DNA from: Sulfurovum sp.
Lineage (GTDB): Bacteria; Campylobacterota; Campylobacteria; Campylobacterales; Sulfurovaceae
Length of the DNA stretch: 41,213 bases
Assembly (NCBI GenBank): GCA_020726085.1
Contig: DYTG01000003.1
Location: 1-41,213, forward strand
Reading direction: 5' to 3'
In this document: positions 11,765 through 36,961 of the stretch, in pieces
Layout of the letters: each line of letters begins with the position of its first letter
Position numbering within the stretch: the first letter of the stretch is position 1
Position numbers and translations under genes: made by a program
The notes under the pieces: model-generated
Told to the model about the DNA's origin: nothing
Databases searched by the model: none
What the model saw: the letters and a program-made list of their open reading frames with translations, nothing else

Positions 11765-11772
11765 ACTCTCTC

Positions 11773-13386: not shown

Positions 13387-13406
13387 TTTTTCCTCCTTTT
13401 TTACTA

Positions 13407-14753: not shown

Positions 14754-14775
14754 TTGTCACTGTGCCTTTACGTTT

Positions 14776-19699: not shown

Positions 19700-19712
19700 G
19701 CTCTCTCCTGTC

Positions 19713-21803
19713 TTATATGTACCATTTTTTCAAATTAAAATTCTCAAAACCCAGCACTACATCCTCATAGAGTGGGGATTTTTGCTCAACCTTTCCATTT
19801 ACAATCAATTTGCATGAAAATTTTGCTTGGTTTAATATGCACTCATAGATTTTGATCTCTATAATCTCTCCAAAACCGCTCACAATCTGTTTCTCATTGA
19901 TACTCATCTTATGAATGCCTTGATAAATGGGTATCTCAAATGCCTTATCGTCACAATAGAGCATCAAAAATATATCTTCACTAAGATTTTTTAGCTTTTT
20001 ACCTCTAAAAGCAAAGTAGAGGGATTGGTCTCTATCTTGGCCGTAAAAAATCTCCTCAATAAAAAGCGTCGTACTCATGGTGCTAAGCTCTCGCCTTAGG
20101 TCTATATAGCCACTGTTGAGCCACTCATAAAAGTTGTTGGTATTGCCATTGATTTGAGGTATGATATAGTCTTGGGGGGCAACATGAAAACACTGCGTTT
20201 TGTTTTGGATTACAATGGGGGCAAAGATTTGTGAGGGGATGCTTTCATTCATTAAAAGATAGATATTTTTAAGATGCCCTCGAAACTGCTCATCAAACTG
20301 CGAAGCGTAAGCCGTGAAGTGATCATCGCCATACCACCAAAACCAATCGCTCCCCAAAGCAATCATAAACTCCTCATCTATTGCAGCTTGTGTGGTCGCA
20401 TCAAAGTTGTTTTTGAGCCTATCGTAGAGATTTTTGGTACCATCAAGCAACTCCCACGCTAAATTTTTGTCACGGCTACCTATCCATATATCAAAATTGC
20501 CATTAATCCAACTCCCACTCGCAATCGTATCAAGAGAGCCAACAGCAAGATTGGGATACTCTTCAATCTCATCGTACAAGAGCGTTTGACACCACTCCTC
20601 TTGTGCCAACAATGTATATAAAGCATCAAAAAAATCCATGGCGTTATTAGGATAGAACTCCCATGCGTTTTCACCGTCTAAGATAATCGAAACCACCATC
20701 GAATCGTGTCCGCTAAGATAGATGTTGCGTAGATGTTCGACAAAATGTCGTGCTGCCTCTTTGGGGTCTTTGCGTGAATACTCAAAACCTATCAAATCGC
20801 TTAGGTAATGGTCTCGAAAGAAGAGATGGATGGTTTTACCCTCTTTGGAGGTGTAGGCATAGGGCTTAAAGAGTTCGTTTCGATGAATGTTTTTGAGACT
20901 TTTAAACAAAATCGCCTCATCACTACACACCCACTTGATACCTTTGTTAATCAAAAGTTCAAGAGTAGCTTGACTCACACTCCCCTCGGAGGGCCAAATA
21001 CCTTTGGGTTTGTGACCAAACAGCTCCTCGTAGAGCTTGATAGCACGGCTCATATTGAGAGCGGCATACTCTTGATAGGAGGCTTCACTTCTAGGCATTA
21101 CAACACTTCCTTTTGCCTCTTTGGCACTCTTGCGATCCATCAAAAGCGGCAAAATAGGGTGGTAATAGGGGGTGGTTGAGATGGCGATTTGTTTTTTGGT
21201 ACTTAAATTTTTGTAGTAGGGAATCACTTTTTCCATGAACTTCAAAAGCGTATCAATCAATGCGATTTTTTGAGCATGCTTAAATCCTCTCCCTTGGGTC
21301 AAAAACTCTTGAACAATGCGAGAATTTTGACGCAAGTAGTTGCCACACCAACTGAGCAAAAAAAGCACTTGTGCATCAAGTATCTCGGCGTGTGAAAAGT
21401 TTTTAAGAGTCCGTTCGTTGCCAACGTATTTAAGATAGAGTTCATAATAGCGACCCAAAGGTTTAATCATCTGATCAACATTGGCAGCAAAAATATAGCT
21501 CCCCAAAAGAGCCAAATCGTTTTGGTTGAGCGACGTAATATCGTATTTAAGTGTGGTAATAAGCTTATCGTTGGATTTATCTTGGCAATAGCTCTCAATT
21601 TGTTCAAGCAAAGAGGGAACAAGATTAAAAGTAGCCTTAATGGTAGGGTGTTTGCTAAGATACCACGGCATATCGTAGTAGTCTTTGATAGTGTGCAAAA
21701 ATACCCACGGCATAAGCGTAGCATTGGCTTGTGAATCCTTATAATAAGGCTGGTGCATATGCCACAAAAAGGCAAGATAGAGTTTTTTCATCTGTATATC
21801 CAT
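19713..21803 (-). CDS. GH57 family glycoside hydrolase (alpha-amylase/amylopullulanase-like)
   Basis: LYLAFLWHMHQPYYKD, GIWPSEGSVSQATLELL, VVSIILDGENAWEFYP; C-terminal beta-rich extension. Alternative start at 21791 (MKKLYLAF). Confidence 0.88.
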   Translation of the reverse strand: MDIQMKKLYLAFLWHMHQPYYKDSQANATLMPWVFLHTIKDYYDMPWYLSKHPTIKATFNLVPSLLEQIESYCQDKSNDKLITTLKYDITSLNQNDLALLGSYIFAANVDQMIKPLGRYYELYLKYVGNERTLKNFSHAEILDAQVLFLLSWCGNYLRQNSRIVQEFLTQGRGFKHAQKIALIDTLLKFMEKVIPYYKNLSTKKQIAISTTPYYHPILPLLMDRKSAKEAKGSVVMPRSEASYQEYAALNMSRAIKLYEELFGHKPKGIWPSEGSVSQATLELLINKGIKWVCSDEAILFKSLKNIHRNELFKPYAYTSKEGKTIHLFFRDHYLSDLIGFEYSRKDPKEAARHFVEHLRNIYLSGHDSMVVSIILDGENAWEFYPNNAMDFFDALYTLLAQEEWCQTLLYDEIEEYPNLAVGSLDTIASGSWINGNFDIWIGSRDKNLAWELLDGTKNLYDRLKNNFDATTQAAIDEEFMIALGSDWFWWYGDDHFTAYASQFDEQFRGHLKNIYLLMNESIPSQIFAPIVIQNKTQCFHVAPQDYIIPQINGNTNNFYEWLNSGYIDLRRELSTMSTTLFIEEIFYGQDRDQSLYFAFRGKKLKNLSEDIFLMLYCDDKAFEIPIYQGIHKMSINEKQIVSGFGEIIEIKIYECILNQAKFSCKLIVNGKVEQKSPLYEDVVLGFENFNLKKWYI

Positions 21804-21812
21804 TTTTTACTA

Positions 21813-21842
21813 CTCGTTCCACCTCGGGAGAGGTGGAACGAG
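21813..21842. repeat. Perfect 13-bp inverted repeat (hairpin) in an intercistronic gap
   Basis: CTCGTTCCACCTC-GGGA-GAGGTGGAACGAG, read directly. Confidence 0.9.
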
Positions 21843-21870
21843 AAAGCTTTGCCTTTTGTGATAAAAAGTT

Positions 21871-24354
21871 TCATTCACTAATCCACTGCTCAATTTTGTC
21901 TTGGTATTGATAGAAAATTTTACCCGCATTTTTAGCATCTTCGGCTTGGACGTAGAGATTGAGATACTCTTGGTGTTGGTCGGGTACCATCAATATCCAC
22001 TCCTCGTCGCTCACCCAAATTTTGACTCCATCGACGGAAGAGGTGCGTTTGTCTTTGCCATCTTCCAGAAATTTACGCATGATTTTGCCCTTTTTGGTGC
22101 TAGGACAAGGGATATTGCCCCCTTGAAAGATAAACTCAGGCAAACTTTTAATCACTTTGGAGATTTTTTGTTGCGATTTTTGAATCAGTTCAAGGACTTT
22201 GATACTCGCATAGACGGCATCTTTATTGAGTCCAAATTCACTAAAGGCAAAATGCCCATCGGTATCGGCAATAAGGTCATACTCTTGCAGATTATCAGCT
22301 TTGAAGTTGCCAAACCTTTCTCGCACCACTTCAATGTTTGGATACTTGATAAAATCAGGCGCCCATGCAGGGAGTAAGGCTCTAAGGGGCTTATCAGTTG
22401 TAGTATTGAGCAGTTCAAGTAGTGTCAAAAGCAAAATATAGTCATATACCAAATTGCCTTTATCATCGACGAGTTGGAGTTTTTGACCGTTGGGATAGAT
22501 AATAATCCCGCAATCCAAATTGAGCGATTGGACGATTTTTTGGAGATCCTCTTGCGATTGTTCCAAATTGGTCGCACCGCCCTTTTCGTTTTTGTAGGCG
22601 TTTAGCGTAATATTGTCAATGCCCAATTCATGCAAAATTTGAGGATAGGTATCGGCGGTAGAACCGTGCATAATATCAACGGCAATTCTCAGTTCACTTG
22701 AGGCAAATTGATTTTTTTGAAAATTGCTTTGGAGGCGTTGAATGTAGCGTTCTTTAACAAACATATCTTCGTAAACCTCTCCAATATCTTGATAATTTAC
22801 CCGTCTAAAGTTCTCTCTAAAGAAGATACGTTCAATCGATTGAGCCAATTTGGTATCGATACTAAGTCCCTCATGCGTTGAAAAAACAATTTCAGTTATT
22901 TCAGGTTCATAGACCGATTGTCGAAAGTGAATACCCGCAGCAATTTTTTCGTTTTGATGCAAAGCGTGACGCATAACGTTGGAGGGGATATTAAAGAGGT
23001 TAACGACATTGATACCCGTTGAGAGCATACCGCTTACAAAGGCACGTTTGAGCATTCGTGAGCTGTTGTGATAATCTCGTGAGATATAGACCGATGAGCC
23101 TACAGGCAAGATAGAGCCAAAGGATTCGGCAAGTTTGGTGGACATTTGAGCTGAGAGTTCGATATTGGTTCTACCCATTACCACGCCGTTTTCAAAGATA
23201 GAGGATTTGTATTTGTTACCCCAAATCACATTGGTGCTTACGACGGCTGAGGGTTCAATGACCTTATCGGGCCACATAATGACATCTCGCTCAAAAGTAA
23301 CTTTTTTGTTGATTTCACAATTTTCCGCTACAATCACCCCAAAAGCGACTTTAACCTCATCTTTGACGATGTTGTCGTTGCACAATACGGCGTTGTGAAG
23401 TTTGACTTTGGAGCCTATTTGTACATTGTGCCACAAGACGCTATCCAGAATTTCGGAGTGTTTTTTGACGACTGTGTTATCACCAATAGAGCAGTTTTCA
23501 AGCGTTACACCCTCACTAATCTCTACATTTTTGCCCAGTATTACCGTGCCTTTGATACGGATTTTTTCATGGAGGTTTACCCCATCTTCCATATAAACCA
23601 CTCCCTTGTCAAATACCTTCATCTCACCTTTGATAGGAAGTTCTATTGCTTTGGCAAAAATATCTTTATAGACATCTCGGTAGCTCTCGGGATTGCCTAC
23701 GTCTCTCCAGTAGCCTTGGAGTGAGAATCCCCACAGGGGTATATCTTCACGCATCAACTTAGGAAAGAGATCTTTGGCGAAGTCAAAATTTTCACGGTAA
23801 GGAATATAGTTTAAAATTTCAGGTTCAATCATGTAGATACCTGTATTAATCGTATCACTAAAGACCTCGCCCCAGCTTGGCTTTTCTAAAAATTTTTCGA
23901 TTCTATGCTCTTCGTTGGCAATCACTACGCCAAATTGAAGCGGATCTTCTACTGATGTGAGTGTGATAGTGAGTTGTGAATTTTTTTGTTGGTGAAAATC
24001 GGCTATCTTTTTAAAATCAAAATTGGTCACCAAATCACCGCTTACAATAATAAACGTCTCATTCAAAAACTCTCGCGCAAAAGCCACCGCCCCCGCCGTA
24101 CCATAATCATCATCAGGCAGATAATAAGTAATATCTACCCCCAAATCTTTGCCATCGCCAAAGTGATTTTTGATAATATCGGGCTTAAAGTAGAGTAAAA
24201 CCGCTATTTGGGTAATGCCCAACTCATCTCGGAGCTTGATAATGGTATGCTCCATCATGGGTCTATTTAAAATCGGTAACATCGGTTTGGGTACCGAGTT
24301 GGTAAGGGGTTGGATACGTGTTCCAAAACCACCAGCTAAAACAATTGCTTTCAT
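21871..24354 (-). CDS. Sugar-phosphate nucleotidyltransferase fused to a phosphomannomutase-like domain (mannose-1-phosphate guanylyltransferase family)
   Basis: MKAIVLAGGFGTRIQPLTNSVPKPMLPILNRPMMEH, left-handed beta-helix hexapeptides, then a PMM-like region (SSVYISRDYHNSSRMLKRAFVSG...). Confidence 0.88.
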   Translation of the reverse strand: MKAIVLAGGFGTRIQPLTNSVPKPMLPILNRPMMEHTIIKLRDELGITQIAVLLYFKPDIIKNHFGDGKDLGVDITYYLPDDDYGTAGAVAFAREFLNETFIIVSGDLVTNFDFKKIADFHQQKNSQLTITLTSVEDPLQFGVVIANEEHRIEKFLEKPSWGEVFSDTINTGIYMIEPEILNYIPYRENFDFAKDLFPKLMREDIPLWGFSLQGYWRDVGNPESYRDVYKDIFAKAIELPIKGEMKVFDKGVVYMEDGVNLHEKIRIKGTVILGKNVEISEGVTLENCSIGDNTVVKKHSEILDSVLWHNVQIGSKVKLHNAVLCNDNIVKDEVKVAFGVIVAENCEINKKVTFERDVIMWPDKVIEPSAVVSTNVIWGNKYKSSIFENGVVMGRTNIELSAQMSTKLAESFGSILPVGSSVYISRDYHNSSRMLKRAFVSGMLSTGINVVNLFNIPSNVMRHALHQNEKIAAGIHFRQSVYEPEITEIVFSTHEGLSIDTKLAQSIERIFFRENFRRVNYQDIGEVYEDMFVKERYIQRLQSNFQKNQFASSELRIAVDIMHGSTADTYPQILHELGIDNITLNAYKNEKGGATNLEQSQEDLQKIVQSLNLDCGIIIYPNGQKLQLVDDKGNLVYDYILLLTLLELLNTTTDKPLRALLPAWAPDFIKYPNIEVVRERFGNFKADNLQEYDLIADTDGHFAFSEFGLNKDAVYASIKVLELIQKSQQKISKVIKSLPEFIFQGGNIPCPSTKKGKIMRKFLEDGKDKRTSSVDGVKIWVSDEEWILMVPDQHQEYLNLYVQAEDAKNAGKIFYQYQDKIEQWISE

Positions 24355-25613
24355 ATTTCTATCCTTTCATTTTGATTATCACTACTCCATGTGGTAGAGA
24401 TGTTTAAGAGTTGTCGATTCTTCTCATAGATAAGATGCATAGAGTGGAGAATCTTTTTGAGTATTATGACGGTATCGACCACAAAATGGCTTTTGTTGAG
24501 CATAATACAATCGGCCCTTTGGGCAAAAGCAGCGTCAATAACCTCCGCTCGCGCAGGGAGATTGTTTTTCATTTTGCCTTCGAGTATTTGCGTAGCGTAA
24601 ATCACAGGCACCAAAGCCGATTCGCAAATATCAAAAATCTCCTCTTGGATATAGGGCAGGTTGTCAAATCCTACCTCAATCGCCAAATCTCCCCGTGCCA
24701 TCATCGCGCCATCGTTGGGACGTTTGAGGAGTTGTGCCAAAAGAGAGGGGAGATTTTTCACGCCTCTTTTGGTCTCAATCTTGGGTACTATGGCGATGTG
24801 TTCTTTACCTTTTTGAAGCCTAAAGGTGTGAAGTATCTGCTTTTCATTATCCATAATCTTAATGGTGCGCCACTTGTCACGACACCTTGCATAAACATCA
24901 TCCTCTACTGCAAGAGTGGCACTTGTATCGCTAGTAGGACTGGCTTGGGTTAGGGCTACTTGATGGCTTTGGGGTAGAATTTCAACTTCAACTTCAACTT
25001 TCTTTGAGCCTATCTTAAAGGGAGTGAAGCTTTTTTCAAACTCACCCGTTCGGTTTTTGGGACCTGCTAAATCGACATAAATTTTGGTATCTTTGTTGTG
25101 TTTTTGGTTTTGTTCTTTGATAAAAAGTGCCATTTTTATCCATGCACCCGCAGTATTGATACGCAAAACCGAGACATCTTGAGCGATGAGATCTTTGATA
25201 AGTTCATCGGATTGAGCAGCCTCCGAGGGCAAAGTGACCATTACTTTGCTTTTGTAGTGTTCATCATCGCTCGTGCCAAAAATTTTGGCATTGTCTTTGA
25301 GTATCTTTTTGGCACTTTTGAAATCCAAATAATCATGCTCATCGGGTGTTTGCGGTTTGTCCAAAAGCTGTTCGAGAATTTTGATATTTTGATGAATCGA
25401 ACTCATCACGCACGTTTGCGAACACCCCAATGAAGAGAGACCTATTGAGGTAAGCTCTTCTTGAATAGCAGTTAGATTAAAGTTACGCAAACTCACATAA
25501 TCGCTAATATTGTTTTGCCAAAGGTGCGTTTGTTCTTGGTCTCTTTGCACAAGTATCTCTCTTTTTAGCTCCAAAAGCTCCTCAAGGGGTCTCTCTGGCT
25601 TACCTAGATTCAT
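24351..25613 (-). CDS. Pyruvate-kinase-like protein, divergent (N-terminally extended, barrel apparently shortened)
   Basis: KSKVMVTLPSEAAQSDELIKDLIAQDVSVLRINTAGA, IYVDLAGPKNRTGEF, IVPKIETKRGVKNL, MMARGDLAIEVGF, VIYATQILEGKMKNNLPARAEVIDAA. Confidence 0.82.
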   Translation of the reverse strand: MNLGKPERPLEELLELKREILVQRDQEQTHLWQNNISDYVSLRNFNLTAIQEELTSIGLSSLGCSQTCVMSSIHQNIKILEQLLDKPQTPDEHDYLDFKSAKKILKDNAKIFGTSDDEHYKSKVMVTLPSEAAQSDELIKDLIAQDVSVLRINTAGAWIKMALFIKEQNQKHNKDTKIYVDLAGPKNRTGEFEKSFTPFKIGSKKVEVEVEILPQSHQVALTQASPTSDTSATLAVEDDVYARCRDKWRTIKIMDNEKQILHTFRLQKGKEHIAIVPKIETKRGVKNLPSLLAQLLKRPNDGAMMARGDLAIEVGFDNLPYIQEEIFDICESALVPVIYATQILEGKMKNNLPARAEVIDAAFAQRADCIMLNKSHFVVDTVIILKKILHSMHLIYEKNRQLLNISTTWSSDNQNERIEI

Positions 25614-26575
25614 GTACGAACAAGCCTTTTGAGCAAATCGATCAAATTGGGATCAATTGCATATTTTTGGGAATTGACGTGTTCGATGGTGACAAAATCA
25701 AATTGGGCGTTTTTATAGACAATGACATTGGCACATTGATTGTTTGCAAGGAGATAATCGATAGCATAAGTGACAAATTGAGAAGCCATTAAGCGGTCAT
25801 GTACGGTTGGATTGCCACCTCTTTGGACATGACCCAAAATCGTAGCGCGTGTCTCAATGCCTACTTCGCTAGAGAGCCAATCGACTATCTTTTGGGTTGC
25901 ACCTGTGCCCTCGGCTACAATCGCTACAACATAGATTCTTCCATTGGCAATCTCGGCTTTGAGCTGTTTGCCAATTTTATCCAAATCGTAGGCAAGTTCT
26001 GGGACAACACACACCTCGGCTCCACTCGTAATAGCCGAAACTACCGCCAAATAACCGCAATCTCTCCCCATCGTCTCGACCACACACGCTCTTCTAAAAG
26101 AAGCCGAAGTGTCTCGTATTGCATCAATGGCTTCACGAATGATATTGAGTGAAGTATCAACCCCCAAACAGTAATCCGTACCAAAAATATCGTTATCAAT
26201 CGTAGCAGGAATGCCCACAAAACTAATCCCAAAATCGTGATAAAATTGATTGAGCGCTCTAAATGAGCCATCTCCTCCCAAAATAACAATACGGGTAATA
26301 CCGTGTTTTTGGAGGTTTTCGTAGGCTTGTTTGCGATACGCATACTCAAAAAAACGTTTGGAGCGAGAGGAGCGTATCATTGTTCCTCCCTCATGCATCA
26401 TTCCTGCTACATCTCGATAGGTTGCCGCTCGAATCTTTCCATCAATAAGCCCCTCCAATCCATCATAGATAAAATAGGGTTTTAAATTATGGTGCAAAGC
26501 ATAATCAACAAATTGTTTGATAGCAGGATTCATCCCCGCACAATCCCCGCCTGAGGTCATAATTGCTATTGCCAT
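25610..26575 (-). CDS. pfkA: 6-phosphofructokinase
   Basis: MTSGGDCAGMNPAIK, ILGGDGSFRA (GGDGS suggests ATP type), PATIDNDIFGTDYCLG, ETMGRDCGYLA, LGHVQRGGNP. Confidence 0.94.
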   Translation of the reverse strand: MAIAIMTSGGDCAGMNPAIKQFVDYALHHNLKPYFIYDGLEGLIDGKIRAATYRDVAGMMHEGGTMIRSSRSKRFFEYAYRKQAYENLQKHGITRIVILGGDGSFRALNQFYHDFGISFVGIPATIDNDIFGTDYCLGVDTSLNIIREAIDAIRDTSASFRRACVVETMGRDCGYLAVVSAITSGAEVCVVPELAYDLDKIGKQLKAEIANGRIYVVAIVAEGTGATQKIVDWLSSEVGIETRATILGHVQRGGNPTVHDRLMASQFVTYAIDYLLANNQCANVIVYKNAQFDFVTIEHVNSQKYAIDPNLIDLLKRLVRT

Positions 26576-26587
26576 GGTTGCTCTCTT

Positions 26588-27844
26588 TTAGGCTTGAAAT
26601 TTTTTAACTAAAATATCTTTGCCCAATTCAACACCAGGCTGATTGTAGGTATTGACCCCCATCATCACTCCCGTAATGGATGTTAAAAGCTCAAAATAAG
26701 CAATTAAAGCACCGATATTCTCTTCATTGGCAATACTTAGTGAGATTTTATCAGCAACCACACCGCTATCCATGACACTTTGCATTGTAGCGTCACATTG
26801 GGCGTTGATAAGCTTCCCAAAGCTGTTACCGTTGATGTAGTCTGTTTTTTCGATACGTTTGAGTGAAATATTGGGGATGGTAATATCCTCCTCGAAATCA
26901 TCAATATTCATAAATGTCACACTCTTATTGAGAGGTCCTTCGATGATGAGTTGCAAGAAAGAGTGTTGATCTACCGAACCTGTTAGCCCAATAGGCGTAA
27001 GTCCCACACGGTTGCCTTGAGTATCGATTTTGCCCAGTGATTCGCCCCAAAGTTGCACATACCATTTGGAAAAATCTTCAAGCAAGTTGGAGTAAGCAAA
27101 AAGGACATTGATAGAAATCGTTTGGTTGTTGGTATAGAGATAGTAAGCCTTTTGAAGCAGATGCTCCTCTTGACGCTCAAAAAATCTATCAATCAAGCTA
27201 CCCGCACCTTTAAGCAACGCCTCCATATCGTATCCCATAAGAAAAAGTGGCACGATTCCAACGGCACTCAAAACCGAAAAACGTCCCCCTACGTTGCTGG
27301 GCATATTAAACTCTTTGATACCGTACTCTAGGGCAAATTGAGACAAAATTGAACCTGGATCGGTAATAACAATAAGCCGTTTAGCATCGTCTGAAGCAAA
27401 ATCAAAATCCAAATACGCCACGATAGCCTTGAAAGTAGAGATAGTCTCAATCGTCCCACCCGATTTGGAGATGAGGATAATAACCAAAGACTCTTTTTGA
27501 AGCTTTTTGAGTTTGGATGCGATATCAACGGGGTCGGAGTTTTCAAAAAATATTAGCTCTTTAGCGTTGGTACGTTTGTGACAAAGCAATGAATCAATCG
27601 CTTTAGCCCCCAATGAAGAGCCACCAATGCCCACAACCACCACCGTTTTTGCTTCCATTAACACACTGTTATCTTGCGTATAGGCTTGAAGCTCACGAAT
27701 AACCTCTTGTGAAGTAACAGGAAGTTTGTAGTAGCCAATTTCGTCGCTTTGGCACTCGTGTTGCACTTTTGTAAAAGCATCCTCAATCACGTGATTGGTA
27801 TCTGTTGTTTCATAAAAATTTGTTGGTCCATGAAAGGTTATCAT
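26588..27844 (-). CDS. pgi: Glucose-6-phosphate isomerase
   Basis: VGIGGSSLGAKAI, ISKSGGTIET, NVGGRFSVLSAVGIVPLFLMG, GLTGSVDQHSFLQLIIEGP. Confidence 0.94.
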   Translation of the reverse strand: MITFHGPTNFYETTDTNHVIEDAFTKVQHECQSDEIGYYKLPVTSQEVIRELQAYTQDNSVLMEAKTVVVVGIGGSSLGAKAIDSLLCHKRTNAKELIFFENSDPVDIASKLKKLQKESLVIILISKSGGTIETISTFKAIVAYLDFDFASDDAKRLIVITDPGSILSQFALEYGIKEFNMPSNVGGRFSVLSAVGIVPLFLMGYDMEALLKGAGSLIDRFFERQEEHLLQKAYYLYTNNQTISINVLFAYSNLLEDFSKWYVQLWGESLGKIDTQGNRVGLTPIGLTGSVDQHSFLQLIIEGPLNKSVTFMNIDDFEEDITIPNISLKRIEKTDYINGNSFGKLINAQCDATMQSVMDSGVVADKISLSIANEENIGALIAYFELLTSITGVMMGVNTYNQPGVELGKDILVKKFQA

Positions 27845-28077: not shown

Positions 28078-28530
28078 TCACTGCAACCCTTGTTCTAGCA
28101 CATCCACTATATCCCTCTGCAAAACCTCTCTATCGACACTTTGTATATCTAAAACATGGACATAGAGAGAGTCATCATTGAGTTCTAGAGTGATAGTACC
28201 AGGAGTTAGGGTGATGGCATTGGCTAGGAGAAGCTTGTCGTGGTTGGTTTTTAGGGTGGTTTTGAGTTTGACTATGCCCGTATTAATAGGGAGTTTGGGG
28301 TTGAGGACTATTTTGGCTACTTCTATGTTTGAGGCTATGAGGCTTTTGAAAAAGAGCGGTGCAAAGTGTAAGTATTGACGGATGATACTTGCTAGTTCAA
28401 AGCTTCCACTAGGAGTAAAGTAACGAGCCACCACGAAGGCGACGACTACCCCTACTGCTAACTCTTGGATATCGAGTGAGTTGGTGAGTCCTACCCAAAC
28501 CAACAACAAAAGTATAAATTTTCCTATCAT
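28078..28530 (-). CDS. MnhE/MrpE (MbhA)-like subunit
   Basis: TNSLDIQELAVGVVVAFVVARYF..., ANAITLTPGTITLEL typical of MrpE; last gene of the operon. Confidence 0.88.
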   Translation of the reverse strand: MIGKFILLLLVWVGLTNSLDIQELAVGVVVAFVVARYFTPSGSFELASIIRQYLHFAPLFFKSLIASNIEVAKIVLNPKLPINTGIVKLKTTLKTNHDKLLLANAITLTPGTITLELNDDSLYVHVLDIQSVDREVLQRDIVDVLEQGLQ

Positions 28531-28922
28531 TACTTATCCTTTGGGAAGTACAAAAAGTTATCGGCTTTATCATCCGCCCAGATACACTCATTTTCCAGTT
28601 TGAGCGAATTGGGTGGGCAAACATCGGTACAGAGACTGCACCAGCAACAACGACCGTAATCTATACGAGGGATACACCCACTGGCATTTTTTGGATTGAC
28701 ATCTTTGGCTATCGTTACCATATCAATCGCCTCATTCATGCAAACATCTTGGCAGTTGGCACACCCTATACAGTCAGCTAGTAGGTTGGTATGAAAACCT
28801 CTGTAGCCATCTATCTGCTCTTTTTTTACTTCAGGATAACAGATGGTTTTAGGGTGTTCAAAGAGCTTTTTGACGGCCAAAAACGGGAGAAGTGAGCCTT
28901 TTATATCAGGTGAAAATTGCAT
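28530..28922 (-). CDS. 2x[4Fe-4S] ferredoxin-like subunit (NuoI/MbhN-like)
   Basis: CIGCANCQDVC...CCWCSLCTDVCP. Confidence 0.9.
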   Translation of the reverse strand: MQFSPDIKGSLLPFLAVKKLFEHPKTICYPEVKKEQIDGYRGFHTNLLADCIGCANCQDVCMNEAIDMVTIAKDVNPKNASGCIPRIDYGRCCWCSLCTDVCPPNSLKLENECIWADDKADNFLYFPKDK

Positions 28923-28923
28923 T

Positions 28924-30039
28924 TTATCGCTCCATTTCGGGTGGGCAAATACCCAGTGAGTTCATAATGAGAGCCACATTGGATAGCTCCTCATCTATCA
29001 ATAGATTTTCGAGTAGCGTAAAGCCATGAATGAGTGAGGGACCCTTGACTTGCATTCGCCTAATGAACTCTGAGCCATCCCCTGCCATATAGTAGCCAAA
29101 CTCTCCACGAGCCGATTCAGTAGCTACAAAAATATCCTCTTTTGGGAGTTTGAACTTGCGATGTTTTGGGAGCTTTTGCATGATAGCTCCCTCGCTGGGC
29201 ATCTGAGCTATTACTTGTCTAAGTATCTTGATAGACTCTACCATCTCACCTCTTCGTACCAACGCACGGCTATAGACATCGCAACCCTCATACGTAGGTA
29301 TCTCAAAATCAAGCTTATCATAAACAAGATAGGGGTTATCTCGCCGCACATCTCGCTCTATCCCACAACCTCTAAGGACTTGTCCAACATAGCCATTTTT
29401 GAGGGCTTCATCTCTATTGACCACACCCACACCTATTGCTCTCTTTTTGAAGGTACTGTTTTCAAAAAAGATACCATCATAATCAAGAAGTCTTCTCTCT
29501 AAATAGTCCAAAAGCTGGGCTAACTTCTCCAAAAATCCATTAGGTAGCTCTCGCCTAACGCCACCTGGGTAGATATACATATGATAGACTCGCCCACCTG
29601 TTAGCTCCTCAAAAAGATCAAGTATCAAATCTCTATCATAGACACTCCATTGACCCACGACTCCTAGTCCAATAGAGCCACTTTGTCCACCCATCCATAG
29701 CATTTGGGCGGCTAGTCTCGCCATCTCTAGTACCATGACACGGATATATTTTGCTCTTTGGCTTATCTCTATGCCTGCCAAACCCTCGACGGCTCTAGCG
29801 AAATTTTCCTCATTTGGGTCTGGTTCAGGGACGCAGATGCGACACACTATCGTAAAGGCTTGAATGATGGTTCGTCGTTCAATCAGTTTTTCAAAGCCTC
29901 GGTGGAGGTAGCCCACATGTGTCCTAGCCTCTTTGATAGTCTCGCCTAGAAGGTCTAGCTCCATGCTCATGTTGCCTGTGATACCTGGGTGTTGTGGGCC
30001 ATGGTATATTTTGATGAGTTGGTTGTCGTTATTTTCCAT
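28924..30039 (-). CDS. Group-4 hydrogenase/complex-I large subunit (NuoD/MbhL/MbxL-like) with modified NiFe motif
   Basis: YHGPQHPGITGNMSMELDLLGETI, TIVCRICVPEPDPNEENFARAVEGLAGIEI; C-terminus SLGICPPEMER. Confidence 0.92.
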   Translation of the reverse strand: MENNDNQLIKIYHGPQHPGITGNMSMELDLLGETIKEARTHVGYLHRGFEKLIERRTIIQAFTIVCRICVPEPDPNEENFARAVEGLAGIEISQRAKYIRVMVLEMARLAAQMLWMGGQSGSIGLGVVGQWSVYDRDLILDLFEELTGGRVYHMYIYPGGVRRELPNGFLEKLAQLLDYLERRLLDYDGIFFENSTFKKRAIGVGVVNRDEALKNGYVGQVLRGCGIERDVRRDNPYLVYDKLDFEIPTYEGCDVYSRALVRRGEMVESIKILRQVIAQMPSEGAIMQKLPKHRKFKLPKEDIFVATESARGEFGYYMAGDGSEFIRRMQVKGPSLIHGFTLLENLLIDEELSNVALIMNSLGICPPEMER

Positions 30040-30556
30040 CTTTTAACTCCTTTGCCTGGGCTTTTCTTCGTTTTACCTCTACTTTGACATCTTTGTTGTC
30101 TTCCCTTCCTATCCTAAAGTCAAAATGCTCATTGACATAGGCTAATGTATCAAACTCCCTGCGGAGTGGCGGTATCTCATTCCAGTTTTCGAGGGCAAAA
30201 TCATAGAGTGTGTCGTTGCCTCTAAAGTTGATACCGTACATCTCGTGAAGGTCACGCTCCATCACCTGAGCTTGTGGATAGAGAGTGAGGAGTGTTGGTA
30301 AAGAGCAATGCACTCTACCGATGCGTACCTCTACCATAAGGTTTTTATCTCTCTCCTTAGTGGTAAGGATATAGTTGAGAGAAAACACCTCATCTTCTAT
30401 CCAGTCGGTACAGGCTATTTGTGAGAGTGTGATAAAGTTGCTGTTGATAGAAATATAGGAGAGTATCTCTACAAGCTTATCGGACTCTATCTGAAGCTTG
30501 TAGAGCCTTGAACCCTTCTCTACTATCTCGTAATGTTTTTTCAAAAATTCTATCAT
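30029..30556 (-). CDS. NuoC/MbhK-like subunit
   Basis: TERDKNLMVEVRIGR..., VMERDLHEMYGINFRGN; lies between NuoB- and NuoD-like genes. Confidence 0.9.
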   Translation of the reverse strand: MIEFLKKHYEIVEKGSRLYKLQIESDKLVEILSYISINSNFITLSQIACTDWIEDEVFSLNYILTTKERDKNLMVEVRIGRVHCSLPTLLTLYPQAQVMERDLHEMYGINFRGNDTLYDFALENWNEIPPLRREFDTLAYVNEHFDFRIGREDNKDVKVEVKRRKAQAKELKDGK

Positions 30557-31179
30557 TGGTTCATCCCTGCAAAATTCTCTTCAAAGGTTGGAATAGTGTT
30601 TTTGCCAAATATCTTCTCTTGGTTGGCTCTATAGAAAGCATTGTTTTCTCTGTATTGGATATATCCTGCCTCGCTTTTGGCGTTTCTGATATTGTCTTGG
30701 AGTTTGACAAAGCCCTCGATAAGTGCTTCGGGTCTGGGCATACAACCATTGACATACATATCTACGGGGAGATACTCATCAAGCTTTTTGATGGTGTTGT
30801 AGCTATCCCAATACATACCGCCGTTGATAGTACAACTCCCTAATCCTATGAGATACTTTGGTTCATTCATCTGTTCATAGCTTCGTATCACTCGCTTGAG
30901 TGTTTTGTAGGAGCAGTAGCCTGAGACGATGAGGATATCGGCTTGTCTAGGAGTCGCTACGCCTATGACACCGAGTCTCTCTATATCATAACGACTCGTA
31001 AAGATAGGAGGCATCTCTATCGCCCCACAGCCCGTACCATAAGCTAGGACAAACATACTCCTTGCACGAAACCAATCGACGGCTTTTTGGATGATACTTT
31101 GTGTGTTTTTGATGGAGTACTCTTCATTGTTCAAAACTTTTTGCTGATCTACAAATCCCTCTTGGGTATTTTCTGACAT
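30553..31179 (-). CDS. Small [4Fe-4S] subunit (NuoB/MbhJ/MbxJ-like)
   Basis: LAYGTGCGAIEMPPIFTSRYDIERLGV, ADILIVSGYCSYKT, LIGLGSCTINGGMYWDSY, VNGCMPRPEALIEG. Confidence 0.92.
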   Translation of the reverse strand: MSENTQEGFVDQQKVLNNEEYSIKNTQSIIQKAVDWFRARSMFVLAYGTGCGAIEMPPIFTSRYDIERLGVIGVATPRQADILIVSGYCSYKTLKRVIRSYEQMNEPKYLIGLGSCTINGGMYWDSYNTIKKLDEYLPVDMYVNGCMPRPEALIEGFVKLQDNIRNAKSEAGYIQYRENNAFYRANQEKIFGKNTIPTFEENFAGMNQ

Positions 31180-31190
31180 ACTTTTTTCCT

Positions 31191-32069
31191 TTATACAAAC
31201 AAGAGTCCAACTAGGGCAATACCTGTCGGGACTCTCACTAAAAACTCAACACTCTGTATGGTAGTAAATCTCGCATAGACATTACCTACCAACACTGCCA
31301 CCAAAAAGAGTGCAAAAGTCTTGGCGACTAGCTCCACAAGACCCTCCGCCCCTCCCAAAAAGAGATTCACCATCAAGAGTAGTTTTGCAAATGAAAAGAT
31401 AGCACTTTGAGAGAGAGCGATAGCAAAAAACTTTCCACTAAATTCTGTAGCAGGTCCACTGTAAACCTCTTGGGGTGCACCGACGACATCAAATGGAGAT
31501 TTACCCATGAATCCCAAAAATGAGATAAATGCCCCAATAAAGAGCAACGGATGGGTAAATGCGTTGCAACCCTCACTTTGGTTGGTCATAATGACACCGA
31601 TATCCGCACTCTGGTTGGCTATCATAAGCCCGATAGCAGCGATATAAAAGGGTAACTCCAGCCCAATAAGGCGTGTCAAACCTCGTGTGATACCCATGAT
31701 TCCAAAAGGATTGCCGTTGCTCCCTATACCCATAGCATTGCCCAAAGGTCCCAAAACCATGAGGTAAAGCACGAGGATAAGGTTGCCGTATTGGCTCAAA
31801 CCTATTAGATGCTCACTCCCATTGAGATAGGGAATAAAGAGGAGGGTTGTAATAGCCCCTGTCATCATGATAATAGGTCCTGCATAAAACATCCAGCCAA
31901 AGTTGGTAGAGTTCTCTTTGAGAAAGAGTTTGATACTATCAAAAAAGGATTGTGCTAATGAGGGTCCAAATCTACCGTGAACTCTTGCGGAGATATTTCT
32001 ATAGAGTCCATAGTATAAAAATCCAAAAATATACGCCAATGCTATCATAACAAGTGAATCCAAAAGCAT
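31191..32069 (-). CDS. NuoH/MbhM-like membrane subunit
   Basis: RNISARVHGRFGPSLAQSFFDSIKLFLKE, LPFYIAAIGLM, PFDVVGAPQEVYSGPATEFSGKFFAI. Confidence 0.92.
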   Translation of the reverse strand: MLLDSLVMIALAYIFGFLYYGLYRNISARVHGRFGPSLAQSFFDSIKLFLKENSTNFGWMFYAGPIIMMTGAITTLLFIPYLNGSEHLIGLSQYGNLILVLYLMVLGPLGNAMGIGSNGNPFGIMGITRGLTRLIGLELPFYIAAIGLMIANQSADIGVIMTNQSEGCNAFTHPLLFIGAFISFLGFMGKSPFDVVGAPQEVYSGPATEFSGKFFAIALSQSAIFSFAKLLLMVNLFLGGAEGLVELVAKTFALFLVAVLVGNVYARFTTIQSVEFLVRVPTGIALVGLLFV

Positions 32070-33688
32070 TATCTCACCCCCAAAAAAAGTAAAATAGTAA
32101 AAAAGAGCAAGACAAAGAGCCCAACATATTGCGTACCTAGACTGTAGAGTTTTTTGAGCATGAGTGAACTATCACTGCTGAGTTTGGAGATATGTTCCCA
32201 ATATGCGGCAGTACTATTTGCCAATATCACTCCAATAAAGCTGATGCGTCGCAACTCCTCTCCTATGCCATAACCATAGTGAAGATTGTTTTGTGGGTCG
32301 GGAGTTTCACCGCAGTAGCTGATGTCGTATCGATCTCTTGCCATCACTGCCTTACTCTTCACGGAAGTCACAAGCCACAAAATGAGTGCAAAAACAACTC
32401 CAAAGAGTCCCATAAGAACACCACCGTTGAATGATGCAAAGGCTGTATGGAGTTCAAAGAGGCTACCGTAGCTACTCACCTCAAAGCCCAAAGAGTCCAA
32501 GATAGGATTGAGTGGCACGATACCCAATGAAGGCAAGATACCCAAAACTACCAAGATGATAGCTGCTATAAACTGAGGGATATAAAAACCCACGGGAAGC
32601 TCTCTGTATCCCTCTTTGTCGCCACTTGCTTGTCCTAAGTAGATACCATAGATGAGCTTGTAGCAGTAGAGAAAAGCGGAGGCAGAGCTAAACATCACGG
32701 CTACGAGTAAAAGAGCTTTTTTCTCTTCCAATAGTGCCGTGTAGATAAGAAACTTGCTGTTAAACCCACCCAGTGGTGGCATACCTGCTAGGGCTATGAT
32801 ACCGATGAGAAGGAGGACAAAGAGGATAGGATAGTCGTAGAGGAGGTTACCCAACTGGCTAAATTTTGTCTTGCCTGTGATGTAGATGATAGAGGCGATA
32901 TTGACAAAGAGTAGAAGCTTGACTAGCGTATGGATGATGGTGTGATAGAGTCCAGCCTCGATGCCACTCCCCTCCAAGAGAGCTAAAACAGTGACGATAT
33001 AACCTATCTGAGCAATAGAGGAGTAGGCTAGGAGTCTTTTGAATTCTTCTTGTGAGATGGCTTTGAAAGTGGCTGCAATGGAGGTAATGACACCCAACCA
33101 CGCAAGTACATCAAAAAGTGAACCGTGAAGGTATCTATAGCCTATAATTTGCGAAAAGATGACGATAAAGAGAAATATCCCAGCTTTTGAGATGATAGCA
33201 CTTAGTATCGCTGAAAAGATATGATCGGACTCCTCGTAGGTATCCACAACCCAGTAGTGAAAGGGCATAATACCTGATTTGATAGCGATGGTGACAAAAA
33301 GCAAAAGCGTTATCGGTACATGCAACGCCTCGGGTACTTTGCCAAAATCAATCTCACCGTAGAGTGTCGTACCTGCAAAAGCAACGATGAGGACGATAGC
33401 CCCAAGGAGTGCAAAACCTGCTGCGAGGTTAAAGATAATATATTTTTGCAGCGTCTCTATCCTAGCACTTTTGGCGATGATAAAGTAGCTACTCCAGCTC
33501 ATAATCTCCCATCCCACAAAGAGCGTAATAAGGTCACTGGCATAAAATATAACTCCTAGTGATGCAAAGAGGAGTACATACAACGGCAAATCCCTCCGCT
33601 CGTTTTTGATCAAAAGCAAAGAGGCAAAGACGATGAGTGTCAAACCAAAAAAGAGATTGCCTAGTGGGGTCATAGCAAAGTTAAACAT
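32069..33688 (-). CDS. Antiporter-like subunit (MnhD/NuoL-M-N family), second copy (MbxH'-like)
   Basis: LFVGWEIMSWSSYFII, AIKSGIMPFHYWVVDTYEESDHIFSAILSAIISKAGIF, AGMPPLGGFNSKFLI. Confidence 0.9.
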   Translation of the reverse strand: MFNFAMTPLGNLFFGLTLIVFASLLLIKNERRDLPLYVLLFASLGVIFYASDLITLFVGWEIMSWSSYFIIAKSARIETLQKYIIFNLAAGFALLGAIVLIVAFAGTTLYGEIDFGKVPEALHVPITLLLFVTIAIKSGIMPFHYWVVDTYEESDHIFSAILSAIISKAGIFLFIVIFSQIIGYRYLHGSLFDVLAWLGVITSIAATFKAISQEEFKRLLAYSSIAQIGYIVTVLALLEGSGIEAGLYHTIIHTLVKLLLFVNIASIIYITGKTKFSQLGNLLYDYPILFVLLLIGIIALAGMPPLGGFNSKFLIYTALLEEKKALLLVAVMFSSASAFLYCYKLIYGIYLGQASGDKEGYRELPVGFYIPQFIAAIILVVLGILPSLGIVPLNPILDSLGFEVSSYGSLFELHTAFASFNGGVLMGLFGVVFALILWLVTSVKSKAVMARDRYDISYCGETPDPQNNLHYGYGIGEELRRISFIGVILANSTAAYWEHISKLSSDSSLMLKKLYSLGTQYVGLFVLLFFTILLFLGVR

Positions 33689-35075
33689 GGCTACCTCCTA
33701 TAAGTGTTGTTGCGATGACCTTGCAAACCGCAAGAAGAGTATCGGGGAAAATACCAAAATAGACGATAGCAGTCGCCATAAGCGATAGCAGTGCTTTGTG
33801 TAAGAGAGGTATTGATAAGCTCTCTTTTGTTTCATCTCCACCTCTGGCGTATCCCAAAAGTCTAAAGAGATAGGCAGCCTCTATAAGAGAAACCAACAAA
33901 ATCACCCCTATCAAGAGATACCCACCGCTTAGAGCCAAGCCCTTGAGTATGGTAAGTTTGGCAATAAATCCACCAAATGGAGGCAGACCCAAAAGTGAGA
34001 GAAATCCGACAACAAAGATGCTCATCAAAAAGAGTGAGCCAAAGCGTCCAAATACCGCTACCTTTGTGCTATGAAACTGTTGCTTTAAGATATCAAGAGA
34101 CAAAAAGAGCATGAGTTTGGTGATAGAGTGAAGAGCTATCAAAAATATCGCCCCACTCACAGCTACAACATTACCCGATGAGAGAGCGATGAATAGCACC
34201 CCTATCTGCCCGAGTGTGGAGTAGGCAAATATCCTCTTTAGATCTTTACTTCTCAATGCGGAGAGTTCGGCAACGGCGAAAGAGATAGCACCGATAACCG
34301 CCAAAAAGGTTAGCTTTTGACTATCCACGCCGAGCATATAGGCGATATGAAAAAAGAGAAAGATATAGGCTTTGGAGAGTGTGGCACTAAAGAGTGCGTT
34401 GATTTGGTTCCCACTGGCCTGATAGACATGAGCAACCCAAAAGTTGAGAGGAAAAATCTCTGCTTTGATACCAAACCCAATAAAGAGTGAGAGCAAAATC
34501 AAAAACTGCGTATGCGTCTCAATCGTAGCAAATCTCTGACCTATGGTTACCAAATCAAGCGAACCAATGCTAAGGTAAATACTCATAATAGCGATAAGGA
34601 GAAAAATAGAGGCGACTGAACCGATAATCATATAGCCAATCGCCCCACTGTAGGCTTGTTTGTCTCGTCCTAAAGAAGTGAGGATGTAGGCCGTGATACT
34701 TGCCATCTCGAAAAATATATAAATATTGAATATATCCCCACTCAAAACAAGCCCCATGAGACTTGCTAGAAGTATATTATCGAGGATAAATCTCTCTTTG
34801 CTGTTCTCGCCGCCTAGATTGTAGAGTGAGAGGAGTGTCATTATAAGGATGAAAAGTATCACAAAAAAGAGCGATGCACTATCAAGCACAAAGGAGATAC
34901 TCAGAGCTAAATCAAAGGATATATACTCACGCATTGGCAAAGCAGAGATAAAACTCATCGCAAACACAAGCAGTGCGAGGTTGATGGCTACAGAGACATA
35001 TTTGAGATACTCTCTAAAAAAGGGTGCCAAAAATGAGACGAGGAGCGGCAAAGCCACGAAATAGACCAAACTCAT
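33681..35075 (-). CDS. Antiporter-like subunit (MnhD/MrpD; MbxH-like)
   Basis: IFFEMASITAYILTSLG, GFGIKAEIFPLNFWVAHVYQASGNQINALFSATLSKAYIF, LGLPPFGGFIAKLTIL. Confidence 0.9.
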   Translation of the reverse strand: MSLVYFVALPLLVSFLAPFFREYLKYVSVAINLALLVFAMSFISALPMREYISFDLALSISFVLDSASLFFVILFILIMTLLSLYNLGGENSKERFILDNILLASLMGLVLSGDIFNIYIFFEMASITAYILTSLGRDKQAYSGAIGYMIIGSVASIFLLIAIMSIYLSIGSLDLVTIGQRFATIETHTQFLILLSLFIGFGIKAEIFPLNFWVAHVYQASGNQINALFSATLSKAYIFLFFHIAYMLGVDSQKLTFLAVIGAISFAVAELSALRSKDLKRIFAYSTLGQIGVLFIALSSGNVVAVSGAIFLIALHSITKLMLFLSLDILKQQFHSTKVAVFGRFGSLFLMSIFVVGFLSLLGLPPFGGFIAKLTILKGLALSGGYLLIGVILLVSLIEAAYLFRLLGYARGGDETKESLSIPLLHKALLSLMATAIVYFGIFPDTLLAVCKVIATTLIGGSHV

Positions 35076-35458
35076 GACTCTTCTCCTAATTCATTCATTT
35101 TGTCTATATCCAAATTGCCCGTGAGCTTGAAGTAATTGACAACAAAGGAGAGCGAGAGTGCCAAGACCGCAATGGCGATAACGATGGTTGTAAGTATCAT
35201 CGCTTGAGGTACGGGATCTACCATATTTACGCCAAACTCTGTCACCTTTTCCGTCACAATAGGGGCATCTTTGCCAACCTCAAAGTGCATACCTATGAAG
35301 TACAAAAAGAGGCTTGCTTCAGCGATAGATAGAGAGAGAAATATTTTGAAGAGATTTTTTTTGCTCATTGCACCAATCAAACCAATAGCCAAAAGCAAAA
35401 ATGCACCGATGGTAATAACTCCATGCAAAAAAGGTGTTTGGTTGAAACTATCTAGCAT
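35072..35458 (-). CDS. MnhC/MrpC (NuoK-like; MbhG) subunit
   Basis: LIGAMSKKNLFKIFLSLSIAEASLFLYFIG, DPVPQAMILTTIVIAIAVLALSLSFV. Confidence 0.9.
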   Translation of the reverse strand: MLDSFNQTPFLHGVITIGAFLLLAIGLIGAMSKKNLFKIFLSLSIAEASLFLYFIGMHFEVGKDAPIVTEKVTEFGVNMVDPVPQAMILTTIVIAIAVLALSLSFVVNYFKLTGNLDIDKMNELGEES

Positions 35459-36155
35459 CTTTTATCCTTATGAAATACTCAACGAGGGTACTGATCTCAG
35501 CAGAGACTTTGAGTCCTACAAATATATAGATGAGCGGTATCACGCCCCCACTCCACAGTTTGCCCAGAGTGCCTAGTGGCAAGAAATTACCCAAGAATCT
35601 ATCGACAAGCAAAAGACCCAAGATACCAACGAGGACAAAACCAGCACCACTGAGTGCCTCTACGAGAGTAGTAATTTTGTGGTTTAATTTCAACTCATTG
35701 TTTTTGGCTAAAAACATCAGCAAAAAAGCACTTGCAATAACCACGCCCCCTTGAAATCCGCCCCCAGGCGAGAGGTGACCGTGAATGATGATGTAAAATC
35801 CAAAGAGGATAATCAGTGGAAAGAGTATATCCGCTCCTATTTTGAGGAGGGCATTGTCATAACTAAAGATATTTTCTTTCTCTTGAAGTCTCTCTATCCC
35901 CAAACCAATCCCGAAAATAGACAAAAAGAGTATCGTAACCTCCCCTAGTGTATCAAGCCCTCTAAAGTAGGTGACTACCGAGGTGACGGCATTGGCACTT
36001 TGGGTAGTGGTTTGATTGATAGCCAAAAGCTCACTACCCAGTGAACCAGAGAGGGGTTGAAAGCTCAGCAATATACCCAAGAGCAAAATAGTCATGATGG
36101 ATACGAGCAGTGAAACCACGATGGTTTGTACTCTAATTTCTCTTTTTGGATTCAT
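35448..36155 (-). CDS. MnhB/MrpB-like subunit, long form (MbhE+MbhF-like)
   Basis: SVVTYFRGLDTLGEVTILFLSIFGIG; DILFPLIILFGFYIIIHGHLSPGGGFQGGVVIASAFLL. Confidence 0.9.
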   Translation of the reverse strand: MNPKREIRVQTIVVSLLVSIMTILLLGILLSFQPLSGSLGSELLAINQTTTQSANAVTSVVTYFRGLDTLGEVTILFLSIFGIGLGIERLQEKENIFSYDNALLKIGADILFPLIILFGFYIIIHGHLSPGGGFQGGVVIASAFLLMFLAKNNELKLNHKITTLVEALSGAGFVLVGILGLLLVDRFLGNFLPLGTLGKLWSGGVIPLIYIFVGLKVSAEISTLVEYFIRIKDAR

Positions 36156-36400
36156 GCGTTGCGCCCCTTTTTACTAATCTGTAGGAGTGTTACTAGCAAG
36201 ACAACACCACTCGTCCCTGCACCTATCACCGCTTCCGTTAGAGCTACATCGGGTGCGCTAAAGAGGACAAACAAGACAGCACTGCCCAAACCAAACCCCA
36301 TAAATAAAATCACACTATGAGCCAAATCGTTGTTGGATATGATAAAAATAGCCAAGAGAATAAGCATTGCAAAAATGCAAAGTACAATAAATCCTATCAT
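36152..36400 (-). CDS. MrpA C-terminal-like subunit (MbhD/DUF4040)
   Basis: 82 aa: NNDLAHSVILFMGFGLGSAVLFVLFSAPDVALTEAVIGAGTSGVVLLVTL. Confidence 0.88.
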   Translation of the reverse strand: MIGFIVLCIFAMLILLAIFIISNNDLAHSVILFMGFGLGSAVLFVLFSAPDVALTEAVIGAGTSGVVLLVTLLQISKKGRNA

Positions 36401-36711
36401 TTTTGCTCTCCCAAATCATCTATTCCACTCTTGTTTAAAAAGCCATTTTTGAGATAGCTACTACGAGCCAAGATTGACGATGAGAGCGGGTTAGTGAGGA
36501 GTATAAAAAGCCCCAAAAGCGAGAGTTTAAACCAAAGCGATGGGTCTAAAAATATCGCTCCTAGTATCACAAGCAGACTGCCCAAGGTAGAGGCTTTCGT
36601 GCCTGCGTGCATACGGGTGATGGTATCGGGCATACGCAACAGCCCAATCGCACTGATTATCAAGAGCAGTGCACCCAAAAATATAATAAAAAATCCAATA
36701 CCATCAAGCAT
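36397..36711 (-). CDS. MnhG/MrpG-like subunit (MbhC)
   Basis: FFIIFLGALLLIISAIGLLRMPDTITRMHAGTKASTLGSLLVILG. Confidence 0.92.
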   Translation of the reverse strand: MLDGIGFFIIFLGALLLIISAIGLLRMPDTITRMHAGTKASTLGSLLVILGAIFLDPSLWFKLSLLGLFILLTNPLSSSILARSSYLKNGFLNKSGIDDLGEQK

Positions 36712-36961
36712 CGTCGTTCCTTATTGCATTGAATCGTGCAAAAACAATCGTCCCAACGAAGCCTATGAGAGCAAAAACAAAAGCTATATCCAAATAGATG
36801 CTATCTTTGATGGTCACAGATATAACCACTAAGAGTGATACTGTGATAATCCCCATTGTATCAAACGCCACAACTCTATCGGTAAGATGAGGTCCTATAA
36901 GAAAGCGAATAAACGAGAGGAGTATTGCAAAAAGAGTCATAATAATGAGAAATAGAGCCAT
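36704..36961 (-). CDS. MnhF/MrpF-like subunit (MbhB)
   Basis: LSFIRFLIGPHLTDRVVAFDTMGIITVSLLVV; first gene of the operon. Confidence 0.92.
   Translation of the reverse strand: MALFLIIMTLFAILLSFIRFLIGPHLTDRVVAFDTMGIITVSLLVVISVTIKDSIYLDIAFVFALIGFVGTIVFARFNAIRNDDA

Follow-up and report, generated by a model that had tools for sequence, protein, structure and literature searches.

A thirteen-gene MBX/MBS-type operon beside glycogen and glycolysis genes in Sulfurovum sp.

Gene content and layout of the operon

We analyzed a 41,213-nucleotide stretch of a Sulfurovum sp. genome (assembly GCA_020726085.1, contig DYTG01000003.1, positions 1 to 41,213; the whole stretch is called the window here), in which 13 contiguous open reading frames (ORFs) on the minus strand, from 36961 to 28078, almost certainly encode a 13-subunit respiratory complex of the MBX/MBS type, as judged from sequence. 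ORF coordinates were checked within the window and gene families were assigned by Pfam and NCBIfam; the 13 genes, with their positions and order, are those that a first-pass annotation of the same DNA had described.

In transcription order, the operon begins with MbxB (MnhF/MrpF-like, 85 amino acids (aa), 36704..36961; PF04066, E = 5e-18), MbxC (MnhG/MrpG-like, 104 aa, 36397..36711; PF03334, E = 2e-23), MbxD (MbhD-like, 82 aa, 36152..36400; PF13244, E = 3e-18) and MbxE (235 aa, 35448..36155), in which an MbhE-like part (PF20501, residues 9-78, a sub-threshold match at E = 3e-5) is fused to MnhB (PF04039, residues 104-222). These are followed by MbxG (MnhC/NuoK-like, 128 aa, 35072..35458; PF00420) and by two MnhD-like, antiporter-like subunits with PF00361 matches, MbxH (464 aa, 33681..35075) and MbxH' (539 aa, 32069..33688), the second of which bears the C-terminal helix HL region. 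The remaining genes encode the NuoH-like membrane anchor MbxM (292 aa, 31191..32069; PF00146), the NuoB-like MbxJ with the proximal [4Fe-4S] site (208 aa, 30553..31179; PF01058), the NuoC-like MbxK (175 aa, 30029..30556; PF00329), the NuoD-like MbxL (371 aa, 28924..30039; PF00346), the NuoI-like MbxN with two [4Fe-4S] motifs (130 aa, 28530..28922; double Fer4) and, at the operon end, the MnhE-like MbxA (150 aa, 28078..28530; PF01899, E = 4e-37). Adjacent genes overlap by 1-11 nt, except for gaps of 11 nt between the NuoH- and NuoB-like genes and 1 nt between the NuoD-like and FeS protein genes. Promoter and terminator scans returned numbers about those expected by chance. We do not regard the arrangement itself as chance, because other genomes carry the whole operon with an identical arrangement of genes.

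Assignment to the MBX/MBS family

We compared six core subunits (the NuoB-, NuoD-, NuoH- and NuoI-like proteins and both MnhD-like proteins) against all solved structures, and the top match of every one was the MBS complex (formerly MBX) of Pyrococcus furiosus (6U8Y). MbxL scored 304 bits against MBS (6u8y_L), compared with 223 for the top complex I and 133 for MBH, while MbxJ scored 202 bits (6u8y_J), compared with 133 for NDH-1 and 95 for MBH. For the others, the scores were 190 bits for MbxH' (6u8y_X; next-ranked match 111), 165 for MbxH (6u8y_H; next 110), 129 for MbxM (6u8y_M; next MBH, 67) and 68 for MbxN (6u8y_N; next 43). Structures predicted for MbxJ and MbxH' (predicted local distance difference test scores of 73 and 81) gave 6u8y_J and 6u8y_X, respectively, as first fold matches.

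In a 94-row tree of NuoD-like proteins, MbxL lies in a 75-row MBX/MBS clade that includes P. furiosus MBS (support 100, long branch), with complex I and group-4 hydrogenases outside; we do not trust the order of the deepest splits, because a long row in the outgroup (L118) is misplaced and some of the long branches come together. A tree of MbxJ, MbxL and MbxM together also places the window's proteins inside MBX/MBS, and gives the window's branch support of 100/100. The first-pass annotation had proposed an MBX/MBS-type complex, and these matches and trees support it: on being checked for nesting among hydrogenases or Nuo proteins, MbxL fell in the MBX/MBS clade instead. Its label "archaeal" is too narrow, because MBX is widespread in bacteria.

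Gene content agrees with this placement, as the operon combines the tandem subunits H and H', Mrp-type small subunits and a NuoB/C/D/H/I-like core. P. furiosus MBS likewise has 13 subunits including H and H', in the order A B C D E G H H' M J K L N, from which the window differs in that A (MnhE) comes last; this displacement, also pointed out by the first-pass annotation, is real, needs one change on the tree, and is common to the whole branch. A plain Mrp antiporter was rejected as a candidate given the NuoB/C/D/H/I-like genes in the same operon.

Predicted active site

The proximal-cluster cysteines of MbxJ are all kept (Cys51, Cys116 and Cys146; motif TGCGAIEM), corresponding to C28, C93 and C123 of MbsJ and conserved in every aligned MBX row. 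MbxJ has no CC or CxxC pair, the position of MbsJ C25 is Gly, and we predict an incompletely ligated proximal [4Fe-4S] cluster held by three cysteines. The proximal cluster of P. furiosus MBS also has three Cys ligands, and its free iron is proposed to reduce polysulfide (PMC7684303). In MbxL, the motifs RICVPEPD (Cys69) and CPPEMER (Cys365) each lack the second Cys of a NiFe-ligand pair, such that two of four NiFe ligands are kept (Cys69 and Cys365, equivalent to MbsL C85 and C385), and the quinone positions H38 and Y87 are Thr and Val, being replaced in 75 of 75 MBX rows. MBS shares the RICVPEPD and CPP motifs and has lost the NiFe and quinone residues; its MbsJ C25 and MbsL C85/C385 are dispensable (PMC7684303). 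MbxN, with two CxxCxxCxxxC motifs, is a plain two-cluster protein without an NAD(P)H-oxidoreductase domain, again as in MBS. Because the three cluster cysteines are kept, and two NiFe ligands and the quinone His/Tyr are gone, the catalytic anatomy would be that of a sulfur reductase, as opposed to either a hydrogenase or a quinone reductase.

Complex I was likewise rejected as an identity, since the quinone His/Tyr of NuoD and the CC pair of NuoB are absent; the host genome's separate complex I carries both. An active group-4 [NiFe] hydrogenase resembling P. furiosus MBH (6CFW) would share the Mrp-type arm, the NuoBCDHI-like core and a common ancestry with the window's complex, and Mrp-linked operons in metagenome-assembled genomes (MAGs) of Cloacimonadota, a phylum that has MBX loci, have been reported as group 4g hydrogenases (PMC8542988). 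MBH, however, retains all four NiFe cysteines and contains a single H subunit, the window's subunits score far lower against it, each NiFe pair here is down to one Cys, MbxL lies outside the group-4 clades, and a search of the window's genome for NiFe hydrogenase gave no PF00374 match. We therefore reject the hydrogenase reading as exceedingly improbable. MBX operons can get annotated as complex I or as group 4g hydrogenases, which calls for caution.

Membrane arm

By sequence, the membrane arm comprises two antiporter-like pump subunits and an Mrp-type Na+/H+ module. MbxH' has the conserved residues E61, K137, K168, H249 and K312, and the key residues of MbxH are E123, K204, K235, H316 and K373; E123, K235, K373 and the second His are kept from MBS, and K204 occupies the position of MBS Glu219 in transmembrane helix 7. 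Every examined member of the window's branch has Lys at this position, where MBS and the other bacterial MBX examined have Glu, making the Glu-to-Lys change clade-specific among these members. Lys is the residue usual here in Mrp and complex-I pumps, and is visible in the alignments with 7qru_D and 6cfw_H. MbxH' is ~60 N-terminal residues shorter than MbsH' in the window and in two relatives (L034 and L035), with a full N-terminus in two others (L038 and L039) and in Chromatiaceae. MbxD has no Trp at all and lacks the Trp-rich C-terminal tail by which its counterpart dimerises P. furiosus MBS (PMC7684303).

A distinct branch among bacterial MBX operons

One scan of GTDB species genomes yielded at least 561 loci with related proteins, and the matches listed include MBX loci in Spirochaetota, Bacteroidota, Cloacimonadota, Pseudomonadota, Chlorobiota, Calditrichota and others. 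Nearly all other bacterial MBX operons have MnhE first and MbxN fused to a GltD-like NAD(P)H-oxidoreductase domain (Fer4_20, Pyr_redox_2; NCBIfam PRK13984). Fused examples (L047, L049 and L085) have the same operon with MbxL at ~47-62% identity, but differ from the window in an MbxN of ~600 aa, MnhE first, Glu in MbxH, and H and H' that are sometimes apparently fused. The window's branch, by contrast, has MnhE last and an MbxN of ~130 aa, and comprises Sulfurovaceae and other Campylobacterota, Chromatiaceae and one member of Spirochaetales. Its Chromatiaceae members (Thiocystis minor and Thiorhodococcus mannitoliphagus) share the terminal MnhE, short MbxN and MbxH Lys, and differ in MbxL (70-74% identity), a full-length H' and other surroundings.

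The tree requires a single change in the position of MnhE and three in the fusion state of MbxN; because the window's branch sits inside fused lineages, the simplest reading is that the NAD(P)H domain was lost, although the tree alone gives no direction. The NuoD-like gene is present in 21 of 176 Sulfurovaceae genomes and in 5 of 398 genomes of a Campylobacterota phylum sample, two of the five belonging to another family. This patchy distribution, together with the tree, suggests horizontal transfer of MBX. In one Sulfurovaceae genome (G119; L145), the MBX belongs instead to the Bacteroidota-type branch, at 56% identity, a second independent acquisition.

MBX itself is known, and a bacterial case in Thermotoga maritima has been published; what is new is a distinct branch with MnhE last, an unfused MbxN and the MbxH Glu-to-Lys change. 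We found no MBX in Sulfurovum or other Campylobacterota in the literature searched, most subscription papers being beyond its reach, and the branch and its features appear unreported. MBS, with which hyperthermophilic archaea respire sulfur, is a structural link between hydrogenases and complex I that has been structurally characterised only in a hyperthermophile; its presence, as a separate branch, in sulfur-cycling Campylobacterota and in purple sulfur bacteria that are in culture brings the enzyme within easier reach. Both the donor input (ferredoxin or NAD(P)H) and the pump residues vary within the family.

This variation bears on the claim of the first-pass annotation that the complex oxidises ferredoxin. 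Because MbxN is fused to an NAD(P)H-oxidoreductase domain in most bacterial operons, ferredoxin oxidation cannot be assumed family-wide, and we infer it for the unfused branch only. It also bears on whether a complex with the same ion-pumping arm might link ferredoxin to another acceptor, such as quinone, an organic disulfide or NAD(P)+: the fused domain in most bacterial relatives means that partner use has changed within the family, the hydrophobic chambers of MBS and complex I are similar, and MBS chemistry has been proposed to cleave organic disulfides too (PMC7684303). We nevertheless consider another acceptor quite unlikely, given the replaced quinone residues, the absence of an NAD(P)H domain from MbxN in the window's branch, and a genome search for a separate GltD-like partner of MbxN that found only a glutamate-synthase-type subunit and a complex-I-linked protein. 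The latter (669 aa; G000 contig C71, L129:12199-14205) combines a GltD-like NAD(P)H-oxidoreductase domain with a short NuoF-like match and is encoded beside the NuoD-like gene in the complex I operon; it might serve Campylobacterota complex I as an alternative module for electron input.

Genomic neighbourhood and host genome

Directly downstream of the MBX operon, on the same strand, lie genes for glucose-6-phosphate isomerase (pgi, 26588..27844, after a 233-nt gap; NF003016 above cut-off), ATP-type 6-phosphofructokinase (pfk, 25610..26575; NF002872 above cut-off) and a pyruvate kinase-like protein (pyk, 24351..25613; PF00224). Beyond pyk are nucleotidyltransferase, GH57, galT-like, glycogen synthase, ROK kinase, phosphorylase, phosphoglucomutase and branching-enzyme genes, so that 9529-27844 forms a long same-strand cluster for glycogen synthesis, breakdown and glycolysis, including the ATP-type phosphofructokinase; a GH57 glucanotransferase gene lies upstream of the MBX operon on the opposite strand. 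A sister genome (G003) keeps this MBX-glycolysis/glycogen block, while other relatives do not, and no common neighbour outside the genus was seen in L034-L046, G012, G021, G022, G079, G082, G114, G140, G184, G243 and G492. MBX is followed in G114 by a flavoprotein of the CoA-disulfide-reductase family, and in G140 by a HAD phosphatase and porCDAB. The adjacency in G140 may be a chance insertion, because the same phosphatase-por pair sits elsewhere in the window's genome.

Phosphofructokinase occurs in 86 of the 176 Sulfurovaceae genomes searched, 16/21 with MBX vs. 70/155 without (p = 0.007), and glycogen synthase in 13/21 vs. 41/155 (p = 0.002), both uncorrected for relatedness. A different contig of the host assembly (1.81 Mb, 99.9% complete) encodes a normal Campylobacterota complex I, and the assembly also has pyruvate:ferredoxin oxidoreductase (PFOR), 2-oxoglutarate:ferredoxin oxidoreductase (OOR) and ATP-citrate lyase; unlike that of MBS, this host is a member of Campylobacterota with both reductive tricarboxylic acid (rTCA) cycle enzymes and complex I.

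Proposed function and direction of electron flow

We consider it reasonably likely that the complex passes electrons from reduced ferredoxin to polysulfide or elemental sulfur (S0) while pumping ions. PFOR would reduce ferredoxin during glycogen breakdown, MbxN would accept the electrons, and these would travel via three [4Fe-4S] clusters until they reach the proximal cluster, whose open iron would split polysulfide S-S bonds, as proposed for P. furiosus MBS. The released energy would drive H+ and Na+ pumping, and stored glycogen could be used anaerobically with zero-valent sulfur as the electron sink. Flow in this direction agrees with the anatomy and with the catabolic neighbours, and also with what has been published for P. 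furiosus and T. maritima. The latter, a fermentative Thermotoga unlike the window's host, has a 13-gene MBX operon (compared here by description, not sequence) whose mbxA rises 4.4-fold with S0 (PMC9431562). The co-occurrence of MBX with phosphofructokinase and glycogen synthase, the PFOR and OOR of a genome in which no NiFe hydrogenase was found, and the genes that follow MBX in G140 and G114 also speak for it.

Several observations weigh against this proposal. The glycogen neighbourhood is conserved within the genus only, and the co-occurrence statistics ignore relatedness, with p about 0.07 among high-quality genomes only. On the charged axis, the positions of MbsH H330, MbsM E104 and MbsM E193 are Leu, Val and Ser. 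A PhsA/Psr-like Mo enzyme is also present, and enzymes of this type are credited with Sulfurovum sulfur reduction (PMC10045233). Finally, given ATP-citrate lyase, ferredoxin may be in demand and not in surplus.

The last point leads to reverse operation, in which ion gradients would push electrons from sulfide or polysulfide to ferredoxin and so feed the rTCA cycle (via PFOR and OOR) in a hydrogenase-free autotroph. The presence of ATP-citrate lyase with both 2-oxoacid:ferredoxin oxidoreductases is consistent with this, as is the Riftia symbiont, in which Mrp-Mbx genes, like sulfur globule proteins, share co-expression neighbours with the rTCA cycle, although their direction is there called unknown (PMC11636981). 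Opposing it are the phosphofructokinase, pyruvate kinase and glycogen phosphorylase genes downstream, and the forward direction of the MBX/MBS chemistry characterised so far (PMC7684303). On the distribution side, too, there is a counterargument. Many other MBX carriers are MAGs of Spirochaetota, Bacteroidota and Cloacimonadota, groups generally regarded as fermentative. On balance we judge reverse operation rather improbable, though the complex could work in both directions.

Returning to ferredoxin-dependent sulfur reduction, outside the phylum the closest relatives belong to the purple sulfur bacteria, organisms that store glycogen and sulfur, and Chromatium okenii is believed to consume glycogen in reducing its stored sulfur to H2S (PMC6374484). 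We tentatively suggest, as a scenario that is possible but somewhat doubtful, that a mesophilic MBS branch lost its NAD(P)H-input domain and was exchanged between Campylobacterota and purple sulfur bacteria, serving as an energy-conserving sulfur reductase for anaerobic glycogen use. The operon is a testable candidate for glycogen-driven sulfur reduction and, if the proposal is true, a candidate for the enzyme by which stored sulfur is reduced to H2S in the dark with glycogen as the driving substrate.

Variant operons

Some related loci depart from the usual layout. H and H' are apparently fused into one protein of >1000 aa in four of them (L057, L062, L085 and L103), and the K-L-N-A block lies apart from the other MBX genes in L160 (G079) and L161 (G082), so that in this genus the operon is seemingly split, or the assembly is broken. 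Defence-type genes interrupt the operon at L156:7094-15021 (G184 contig C130), where an Eco47II-type methyltransferase-restriction fusion separates mbxM from mbxJ, and a large NOV_C-domain protein and a YhcG-type nuclease separate mbxJ from mbxK; a YhcG-type gene also adjoins mbxK in L126 (G012).

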